A stretch of DNA of 64,000 nucleotides, taken from assembly GCF_027484505.1 (NCBI RefSeq), contig NZ_JAIXSV010000118.1:1-64000 (forward strand). Reading direction: 5' to 3'. The position numbers and the translations under genes were made by a program. The stretch is from Asticcacaulis sp. (GTDB lineage: Bacteria; Pseudomonadota; Alphaproteobacteria; Caulobacterales; Caulobacteraceae). The notes under the pieces were generated by a model that ran no database searches, had not been told where the DNA came from, and was given only the letters and a program-made list of their open reading frames with translations. How positions within the stretch are numbered: the stretch's first letter is position 1; each line of letters starts with the position of its first letter. Shown here one piece after another: positions 29,657-33,123 of this stretch.

Positions 29657-30823
29657 ATGAAAATCGGTATTGCCGGCATGGGCTATGTGGGCCTGTCCAA
29701 CGCCATGTTGCTGGCCCGTCATAATGAAGTTGTGGCCTTTGATATTGTCCCGGATAAGGTCGCCCTGCTCAATGCGCGCAAATCGCCCATCGTCGATGCT
29801 GATATCGAACGCTATCTGAGCGGCGAGCCCATCAACTTCCGCGCTACGCTGGATGCACAAGACGCCTTCAGCGACGCCGAATTCGTCATCGTCGCGACCC
29901 CGACCAATTACGACGTGACGACCAACCGTTTCGATACGCGCTCCATCGAGGCCGCCACCGCCAGCATCCTGTCGGTCAATCCAAAAACCACCATCGTCAT
30001 CAAATCGACCATTCCGGTGGGCTATACGAACCGTCTGCGTGCGATGCACCCAGACGCCCACATCATTTTCTCGCCGGAGTTCCTGCGCGAAGGCCGGGCG
30101 CTTTACGACAACCTCTATCCATCGCGCATCATTGTGGGGGAACAGTCGGAAAAGGCGCACCTGTTTGCCGATCTGCTGAAAAACGGCGCGGAGAAAAAGG
30201 ACATCGAGGTCCTCTTTACCAACAGCGATGAGGCCGAGGCAATCAAGCTGTTTGCCAATACCTACCTCGCCATGCGCGTCGCCTATTTCAACGAACTCGA
30301 CTCCTATGCCGAAGCGCTGGGACTGGATACGCGCCAGATCATCGAAGGCGTTTCGCTCGATCCGCGCATCGGCAAGGGCTACAACAACCCGTCCTTTGGC
30401 TATGGCGGCTATTGTCTGCCCAAGGACACCAAGCAATTGCTGGCCAACTATTCCGAAGTGCCGCAAAGCCTGATCAAGGCGATCGTCGAAGCCAACACCA
30501 CACGCAAGGACTTCGTTGCCGATAGCATCCTGCGCAGAAAGCCTAAGGTCGTAGGCGTTTACCGCCTGACCATGAAGACCAATTCGGACAATTTCCGCGA
30601 CTCCTCGGTGCAGGGGATCATGAAGCGCATCAAGGCCAAGGGCGTCGAGGTGGTGATTTATGAACCTGCGCTTGAGGCCGAAGAATTCTTCAATTCAAAG
30701 GTCATCCGTGATCTGGAGACCTTCAAGTCCCTGTCGGATGTCATCATCGCCAACCGTCTGGCTGATGAACTGAAAGACGTTGCCGACAAGATCTACACGC
30801 GCGACCTGTTCGGCGCCGACTGA
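29657..30823 (+). CDS. ugd: UDP-glucose 6-dehydrogenase
   Basis: Oxidises UDP-glucose to UDP-glucuronate with two NAD+. The N-terminal Rossmann motif is [50 protein letters not shown] and the catalytic cysteine in [13 protein letters not shown] (about residue 252) are all present. At 388 residues it is the short E. coli Ugd type. It supplies a precursor for surface glycans and may serve the polysaccharide cluster 6 kb away. Its 3' end overlaps the convergent DUF4130 gene by 31 bp. Confidence 0.93.
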
Positions 30824-31665
30824 TCGGCCCGCTGTTGCAGTCGTTCGTGAAATTTCGGCGCGGTGTCAGACGCACCGCGCTCTTTCATTTCACGCACACG
30901 GTGCTCAGCGCTGCGGATCAGGTCAGGAATTAACTCGGCCTCCGGCAGGTTCTTCCAGTATTTCTTGGGCATTTCCGACTGCATGGCCTGCACCTTCAGC
31001 CGCGCCGGATTGAAGATGTTGGCGAAATAGGTGCGCCACAGGTCATCCGTCTCGTCGCGAATGTCGGGCTTTTCGGCGGCCTCATCACTGACCCTAAGTG
31101 TCTCACCATCCCAGGCGGCCGAGCCCTTGGGCGTAGCGATCAGCCAGTCCATGTCATTGAAGCGCCGCTGAAAAAAACCAGCCGTTCGCGCGACGATAAA
31201 ATGCTCCGGTTCAAACCACGCCACGAAGGCGCGGCGCGGTCCTTGCGTCGGGATTTCGCGGAAACGGACAAAGGCCTTCATCTTGTGCGTGTCACGCCCG
31301 ACGGATTTGGCAAAAGCATGGGCCAGCGCCACATCCGGATCGGTCACCACGCGCAGCAGAGGCTTATCCGTCTGAAGCCGCCACAGAAGGCGGTAACACA
31401 GGTCAAAACGCCGCGGATCGCTATGGCACAGCACGGCTTTTGATAATTCGACAAAGGCGGAAGGAACGGTGACGGCCCTTCTTCCGCCAATTTCGGCCGT
31501 CTCTCCCCTGAAATCAGGAGGAAGGCCGGTATCAAACAAACCCGCCTGCGTGCCGGTCGCGCCCCATTCCACCTCCCTCGGCGAAAGTCCCTGACATAAA
31601 GCTTCACGCGCCGCGTCGCGCCATTCGCCATAGTCGCCGCGTCCGCGAAGTTCAAACCGCTTCAT
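30793..31665 (-). CDS. DUF4130 (TIGR03915) putative DNA-metabolism protein
   Basis: A 290-residue protein of the DUF4130 family, which nearly always lies next to a TIGR03916-type radical-SAM protein, as here. Landmarks are [62 protein letters not shown] and [34 protein letters not shown]. In some bacteria the domain is fused to a UdgX uracil-DNA glycosylase; that part is missing here, so this is the stand-alone form. Function is unproven; a DNA repair or modification role is proposed. It overlaps the upstream radical-SAM gene by 4 bp and shares its SOS-box promoter. Confidence 0.82.
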
Positions 31666-32888
31666 AGCAGCACCAGTTGCTGCGGTTCCGGCGCGAACAG
31701 GGTGCGCAGATCGGCGCGATCGATCAGACGCACCGGCGTCCAGTCAGCGGTGACGACGAACGGCTTGATCTTGCGCAACGACACCTTGAGCCGCTGCAAA
31801 TCCTCCAGTTTGAGCCGCCGGAAGCGCCGCACGCTGAGGATGGACTGCACCGCCTTGACACCAAAGCCTGGCACGCGCAGCAGCATCTCCTTGTCCGCCC
31901 GGTTGACATCGACGGGGAAGCGCGCGCGGTTTTCCAGCGCCCAGGCGAGTTTGGGGTCAAGTTCCAGATCAAGCATCCCGTCGGGTCGGCCCGCCGTGAT
32001 CTCCCCGATGTCAAACCCGTAGAAGCGATAGAGCCAGTCGGCCTGATAGAGGCGATGTTCGCGCACCAGCGGCGGCTTGATCAGCGGCAAGACTTTTGAG
32101 GCGTCGGGTATCGGCGAAAACGCCGAATAGTAGACGCGCCGCAGTCGAAAGCGACTGTAGAGCCCGGCGCTGGAGCCCAGAATGGTGGCATCCGTCGTCT
32201 GATCGGCGCCAATGATCATCTGGGTCGATTGCCCGGCCGGCACGAAGCGCTTGCGCCGCTTCTTGTAGGTTGGCTCAGACGCGGCGTCGATCTTCTGTTT
32301 CAGTTCGCCCATCGACCGGCGGATATTGGCCGGGTGCTTTTGCGGGGCGAAGGCCTCCACCCCGGCATCGGTGGGCAATTCGATATTGATCGACAGCCGG
32401 TCGGCATAGAGCCCGGCTTCCTCGATCAGGGCGGCGGAGGCTTCGGGGATGGTTTTGAGGTGGATATAGCCGCGAAAATCGTGCTTCAGCCGCAGGTCGC
32501 GGGCGATGCGCACCATCTGCTCCATGGTATAGTCGGAATTGCGGATGATGCCTGAGGAGAGAAACAGGCCTTCGATATAGTTACGCCGGTAGAATTCGAG
32601 CGTCAGCCACACCACCTCGTCCGGCGTAAAACGCGCCCGCTCGACATTCGACGACGAGCGGTTGATGCAGTAGGCGCAATCGAAGATACAGAAGTTGGTC
32701 ATCAGTATCTTCAGCAGCGAAATGCAGCGCCCGTCCGGCGCATAGGCGTGACAGATACCCGACCCTTCGGTGGACCCCAGCCCGCCTGAGGATGAATCGC
32801 GCTTCGATGTCCCGGACGACGCGCAGGAGGCGTCGTACTTGGCGGCATCAGACAGGATGGCGAGGCGTTCCTTGAGCGTCTTCTTCAT
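31662..32888 (-). CDS. Putative DNA modification/repair radical-SAM protein (TIGR03916)
   Basis: A 408-residue radical-SAM enzyme. The iron-sulfur motif is NFCIFDCAYC (Cys67, 71, 74). Typical family segments follow: HLKTIPEAS, INIELPTDAGVEAFAPQKHP and FSPIPDASKVLP. The C-terminal region (about 325-365, FPVDVNRADKEMLLRVPGFGVKAVQSIL) is a helix-hairpin-helix that would bind DNA. It is translationally coupled to the DUF4130 gene by ATGA. A consensus promoter whose -10 is covered by a GTTC-N7-GTTC LexA box lies directly upstream, so the operon is very probably induced by DNA damage. The reaction and substrate of this family are unknown. Confidence 0.87.
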   Translation of the reverse strand: MKKTLKERLAILSDAAKYDASCASSGTSKRDSSSGGLGSTEGSGICHAYAPDGRCISLLKILMTNFCIFDCAYCINRSSSNVERARFTPDEVVWLTLEFYRRNYIEGLFLSSGIIRNSDYTMEQMVRIARDLRLKHDFRGYIHLKTIPEASAALIEEAGLYADRLSINIELPTDAGVEAFAPQKHPANIRRSMGELKQKIDAASEPTYKKRRKRFVPAGQSTQMIIGADQTTDATILGSSAGLYSRFRLRRVYYSAFSPIPDASKVLPLIKPPLVREHRLYQADWLYRFYGFDIGEITAGRPDGMLDLELDPKLAWALENRARFPVDVNRADKEMLLRVPGFGVKAVQSILSVRRFRRLKLEDLQRLKVSLRKIKPFVVTADWTPVRLIDRADLRTLFAPEPQQLVLL

Positions 32889-32892
32889 AATT

Positions 32893-32907
32893 GTTCATGA
32901 TATGTTC
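32893..32907. promoter_or_regulatory. LexA (SOS) box of the radical-SAM/DUF4130 operon
   Basis: GTTCATGATATGTTC is an exact GTTC-N7-GTTC direct repeat, the alphaproteobacterial LexA consensus. It covers the -10 hexamer of the promoter and lies 5-19 bases upstream of the ATG, an ideal repressor position. Confidence 0.8.
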
Positions 32908-32925
32908 CAAGGACCCTTTCGTCAA
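32897..32925 (-). promoter_or_regulatory. Sigma-70-type promoter of the radical-SAM operon, nearly leaderless
   Basis: On the minus strand TTGACG and TATCAT are separated by exactly 17 bp. The -10 ends eight bases before the ATG, so the mRNA would start at or next to the start codon. The -35 overlaps the stop codon of the upstream 31-residue ORF. Confidence 0.75.
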
Positions 32926-33017
32926 TACGGTAGCCCCACCGAAAGACCGGCCACCAGAGCGGCACAAAAACCAAAGGCCATAATCATAACCGTCGCCGTC
33001 GATTTCAGTTCGCGCAT
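32922..33017 (-). CDS. 31-residue hydrophobic micropeptide, candidate small membrane protein
   Basis: An ORF below the track's cut-off encoding a peptide that starts MRELKSTATVMIMAFGF and ends SVGLPY. It has a charged N-terminus and one transmembrane-length hydrophobic helix (VMIMAFGFCAALVAGLSVGL). A strong GGGAGG ribosome-binding site sits six bases before the ATG, better than most of its neighbours. Its stop codon touches the -35 of the SOS-controlled promoter, so read-through may link it to that operon. No family is recognised. Translation is inferred from the ribosome-binding site and hydropathy only. Confidence 0.5.
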   Translation of the reverse strand: MRELKSTATVMIMAFGFCAALVAGLSVGLPY

Positions 33018-33123
33018 CCTTGCCTCCCATGTGTGGAGACAGTGTTGCGCGTCACCCGACAGGCCGAAATACGGACCTCACCACCCGTTTATAATGGCCG
33101 CGCAAAGCGCGACATGCGCCTGA

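Follow-up and report, generated by a model that had tools for sequence, protein, structure and literature searches.

We examined a two-gene operon carried by 64,000 nucleotides of Asticcacaulis sp. DNA (contig NZ_JAIXSV010000118.1, positions 1 to 64,000; hereafter the window), in which a gene for a radical S-adenosylmethionine (SAM) enzyme is followed by a DUF4130 gene and preceded by a candidate LexA operator (Table 1). Both proteins scored above the curated cut-offs of their families, the first aligning to positions 1-395 of the 415 in the TIGR03916 profile and the second to positions 4-243 of the 243 in TIGR03915, and the start of the DUF4130 gene overlaps the end of the radical-SAM gene by 4 nucleotides. 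The latter family match confirmed DUF4130 as the second gene of the operon, as proposed in an earlier reading made from the DNA letters (the sequence-only reading).

Table 1. Features of the radical-SAM/DUF4130 locus, in window coordinates.
Feature	Position	Strand	Basis
DUF4130 gene (TIGR03915), 290 residues, no UdgX domain	30793..31665	-	220.7 bits, cut-off 112.25
Radical-SAM gene (TIGR03916, rSAM_link_UDG), 408 residues	31662..32888	-	569.6 bits, cut-off 343.5; Pfam Radical_SAM
C-terminal helix-hairpin-helix-like region, residues 322-370	31779..31925	-	Weak family-profile matches to ComEA and RuvA helix-hairpin-helix
Radical-SAM cluster motif C67-x3-C71-x2-C74	32667..32690	-	Invariant in 30/30 aligned orthologues
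Extra invariant cysteines C22, C46 and C55 (YDAxCxSSG...GICHxxxxDGRC), candidate second metal site	32724..32825	-	30/30
LexA operator (SOS box)	32893..32907	-	Exact motif and conservation; gene-direction sequence GAACATATCATGAAC
Sigma-70-type promoter TTGACG-17-TATCAT, -10 within the LexA operator	32897..32925	-	Promoter scan and conservation of the -35 in orthologues

The plus-strand sequence GTTCATGATATGTTC at 32893-32907 is an exact GTTC-N7-GTTC match. Read in the direction of the genes it becomes GAAC-N7-GAAC (GAACATATCATGAAC, 32907-32893, minus strand), which leaves 4 bases to the radical-SAM ATG at 32888 and places the box at -5 to -19. The only promoter-like site within 32700-33100 combines TTGACG (32925-32920, minus strand), a 17-nucleotide spacer and TATCAT (ending at 32897); it agrees with the consensus at 10 of 12 positions, where shuffles would give 0.2 such sites. 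Motif and promoter scans thus reproduced the arrangement first described, an exact box lying over the -10 of TTGACG-17-TATCAT and 5-19 bases from the start codon. The lone box was nonetheless weak evidence, hardly above chance in the window, where GTTC-N7-GTTC occurs five times against 2.2 expected and 9 of 100 shuffles reach five; in the whole genome we counted 103 occurrences, against 69 for the reversed pattern. Such numbers would suit a chance match, with the operon lying outside LexA control.

Orthologous promoters argue against this. Searching within 300 bp upstream of the radical-SAM gene in the 80 nearest orthologues (Asticcacaulis, Rhizobiaceae, Rhodobacteraceae and allies, and Acetobacteraceae), we found the exact box in 80/80, while spacers other than 7 gave 0-10/80 and the reversed pattern 1/80. 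Among the 30 best Caulobacterales matches, of which the window is one, 28 carried the box and one further locus missed it by a single base; the box flips between GTTC-type and GAAC-type orientation from family to family, and its position near the start codon is kept. A wider sample of class and order gave 37/40 (a single base separates two of the other three from a match; reversed pattern 0/40). The samples of 80, 30 and 40 share some loci and are not fully independent. Taken together, about 97% of the related operons in the Alphaproteobacteria retain the LexA site. Because orthologous promoters keep the box, the doubt attached to a single match is removed; the sequence-only reading had named just this search as its check, with absence of the box as the outcome that would count against it.

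Outside the Alphaproteobacteria the operator is mostly replaced by another. In 29 orthologous promoters from other classes, in genomes that we take to be mainly beta- and gammaproteobacterial from their motif and their kinship within the same phylum, the alphaproteobacterial box was absent (0/29) and the E. coli-type CTG-N10-CAG was present in 24, against two for a control pattern. An operator that changes together with LexA's own motif is hard to account for other than through control by LexA. The alphaproteobacterial sites also have the form known for LexA regulons of this class, a GTTC-N7-GTTC operator overlapping the promoter and kept upstream of orthologues. We therefore rejected the chance-motif explanation, which we hold to be negligibly probable, and comparative evidence strongly supports the direct LexA control of the radical-SAM/DUF4130 operon that had been predicted. 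One family outside the class includes three loci (L240-L242) that have neither LexA box; upstream of the gene all three carry an inverted repeat resembling TCTCATCCAATGAGA, possibly the site of another regulator or a diverged LexA site.

We next aligned 64 non-redundant orthologous promoters on the box; since all were chosen for having it, the 2 bits found at each of the eight GAAC positions are expected, and the informative contrast lies between the flanks, which carry almost no information, and the spacer, which is informative. The hexamers usually found inside the box were TATAGT, TAACAT, TATCAT and TTTAGT, all in the place of a -10. Upstream, 25 of the 64 promoters had a -35 with five or six of six matches to TTGACA, against 0.9 expected in shuffles, and in Asticcacaulis relatives with a different upstream sequence TTGAC likewise precedes the box. 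Of 74 orthologues, 72 begin their coding sequence 0-7 nucleotides past the box, too close for a ribosome-binding site to fit between the -10 and the start codon. A leaderless mRNA, with its position conserved in these lineages, is therefore plausible. Some lineages have the box farther from the start, among them Asaia (L123, L130, L132, L134, L136 and L140), where it stands at -39 and is flipped to GTTC-N7-GTTC, a case of operator turnover in which regulation is kept.

Beside this promoter, on the same strand, a 31-residue open reading frame (MRELKSTATVMIMAFGFCAALVAGLSVGLPY, 32922-33017) is preceded by a Shine-Dalgarno-like GGGAGG and encodes a hydrophobic stretch; its stop codon overlaps the -35. 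Two related loci (L061 and L064) have similar frames, which we did not see in the remaining loci from Asticcacaulis.

The two genes of the operon travel together. TIGR03915 was found in 44 of 150 genomes of the order, and 43 of these also had TIGR03916 (counted by hand); conversely, all 43 genomes with TIGR03916 had DUF4130, and one genome had DUF4130 alone. In profile searches outside the class, DUF4130 adjoined the radical-SAM gene in 20/20 loci. From gene content, then, radical SAM and DUF4130 are an obligate pair, in keeping with the conserved pairing noted from the sequence. Fusion of DUF4130 to a uracil-DNA glycosylase domain, seen in 57 of the 80 nearest loci, gives proteins of about 470-525 residues. 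This domain is UdgX, as judged by TIGR03914 (two fusions scanned), by a match to PDB 6ail at E 5.7e-65 and by a loop that is mostly of the (K/R)RRIH type. Another 22 complete DUF4130 proteins, from Asticcacaulis, the Yoonia group and Acetobacter, lack the domain and have fused sisters in the tree, so that UdgX was lost (or gained) at least three separate times; outside the class it is fused in 8/20 loci and absent in 12/20. Nor did any TIGR03914 match exceed the cut-off elsewhere in the Asticcacaulis genome, and a candidate UdgX gene at another locus was dismissed, as the matches were partial, sub-threshold ones within a family-4-like glycosylase. The absence of UdgX from several lineages makes radical SAM plus DUF4130 the core and UdgX an accessory. 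The same absences, in Asticcacaulis, the Yoonia group, Acetobacter and the 12 loci outside the class, imply that uracil handling is not central, and so they count against a LexA-controlled mutagenesis or base-modification factor, in which the radical-SAM enzyme would alter bases (e.g. thymine) and DUF4130/UdgX would handle the product, tuning SOS mutagenesis. The literature yielded no genetic data for a role in mutagenesis, and we consider this explanation unlikely.

Six cysteines of the radical-SAM protein itself (C22/C46/C55 and C67/C71/C74) never vary across 30 orthologues, the most distant at 48% identity; the radical-SAM cluster requires three of them (C67/C71/C74). This surplus suggests that C22, C46 and C55 form a second metal site. 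The sequence-only reading had described a radical-SAM enzyme with a helix-hairpin-helix (HhH); the enzyme family stands, and the HhH is seen as a sub-cut-off Pfam match and as weak family-profile matches to the ComEA and RuvA HhH regions (E 0.02-0.5) over residues ~322-370.

Starting from what comparison established (the gene families, their pairing, the conservation of operator and promoter, and the swap of motif with LexA type), we infer a LexA-repressed, damage-inducible two-gene DNA-repair operon, to which we assign a probability of about 75%. In Asticcacaulis sp., LexA bound at 32893-32907 would cover the -10 and block the promoter until RecA-stimulated cleavage of LexA freed it. Both proteins would then be made from a leaderless or nearly leaderless mRNA. 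Most likely, the HhH-like region would hold the radical-SAM enzyme on DNA, where the 5'-deoxyadenosyl radical that it makes would reverse or trim a lesion, with DUF4130 as its obligate partner in handling the lesion or substrate. UdgX, which binds uracil and abasic sites in DNA, would be an optional addition that is missing from the Asticcacaulis lineage.

That the substrate would be damaged or modified DNA is favored by the SOS control, the UdgX fusion in relatives and the HhH-like region. Radical-SAM enzymes work on many substrate classes and the HhH evidence is weak, which would leave place for a LexA-controlled enzyme acting on a protein, an RNA or a nucleotide-pool molecule of the SOS response. 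The recurrent fusion of DUF4130 to the DNA-binding UdgX domain speaks against such a substrate, as does the HhH-like region so far as it goes, and we regard it as quite improbable. Several observations weigh against the DNA-repair operon nonetheless. Five of the 29 loci outside the class have no recognized LexA box, and the Pfam HHH_3 match in the radical-SAM protein scores 19.4 bits, below its 27-bit cut-off. Sequence searches of the PDB matched no solved structure to either protein, the DUF4130 model (predicted local distance difference test score, pLDDT, 84.5) had no significant fold match there, and no biochemical activity was found reported for TIGR03916 or TIGR03915. The best PDB matches of the DUF4130 model pointed to a DHH-type phosphatase fold, which we rejected because template-modeling scores among the top matches did not exceed 0.27 and E values were no lower than 0.045. 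A literature search on TIGR03916 and on mutant-fitness data found nothing.

We then compared the operon with known systems. In our reading, COG4277 corresponds to the TIGR03916 radical-SAM/HhH protein and COG1573 to its uracil-DNA glycosylase partner. An operon of COG1573 and COG4277 belongs to SOS networks of Bacteroidetes (PMC8565304, 2021), and that paper cites earlier reports of its SOS control in Verrucomicrobia (Erill 2016) and in Caulobacter (da Rocha 2008). An earlier paper (PMC3765255, 2013) had linked DUF4130, in connection with the SOS response, to SplB-like radical-SAM repair proteins and to uracil-DNA glycosylases, and NCBI names TIGR03916 a putative DNA modification/repair radical SAM protein. 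LexA/SOS control of the radical-SAM/DUF4130 family is thus already in print for Bacteroidetes, Verrucomicrobia and Caulobacter; new here are how widely the operator is conserved, its exchange for the other LexA motif outside the class, the finding that UdgX can be dispensed with, and the set of six invariant cysteines. The Asticcacaulis operon resembles the COG1573-COG4277 operon as an SOS-regulated two-gene operon of the same make, but its second gene is DUF4130 alone, with no glycosylase (UdgX) domain, so that the published base-excision reading through uracil-DNA glycosylase does not cover this member. Likewise, the UdgX of Mycobacterium smegmatis type (PDB 6ail and others) is fused to DUF4130 in relatives but missing here.

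With spore photoproduct lyase (SplB), to which PMC3765255 likened the DUF4130-linked proteins, the radical-SAM protein shares its enzyme class, the CX3CX2C motif and the SOS context; unlike SplB it is HhH-like toward its C-terminus, has three additional invariant cysteines and is obligatorily paired with DUF4130. No SplB structure appeared among its PDB matches (phmmer and profile search), and its structure model (pLDDT 63.6) was too poor for a fold search. Tentatively, and at well short of even odds, the six-cysteine radical-SAM enzyme and DUF4130 might represent a distinct class of SOS-induced DNA-lesion enzyme, with a UdgX-independent core, radical repair of a non-SplB kind and a second metal site. 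The comparisons place this enzyme family firmly in the DNA-damage response of Pseudomonadota, with two unrelated LexA motifs serving as its operators, and the minimal Asticcacaulis pair offers a UdgX-free subject for biochemistry on damaged DNA.

The nearest relative of the locus is in an Asticcacaulis metagenome-assembled genome (L061, 99% identity). In a quick tree the Asticcacaulis radical-SAM protein groups with Rhizobiaceae (Shimodaira-Hasegawa-like approximate likelihood ratio test support 99), apart from other Caulobacteraceae, a grouping that points to transfer of the operon together with its operator. Horizontal acquisition, LexA operator included, is therefore probable on the tree.

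Elsewhere in the genome that contains the window, such boxes lie near genes that read as lexA, recA, dinB, imuA, radA, rarA and comM/chlI (assigned by eye from translations), which adds to the case for LexA control of the operon. There are two imuA-like genes, each with its own LexA box (L002:1501 and L028:1501). Upstream of a lexA-like gene, two LexA boxes stand in opposite orientation 11 bp apart (L194:1997-2037); the same pair also occurs on a further contig (C152), which indicates that the two contigs probably overlap.
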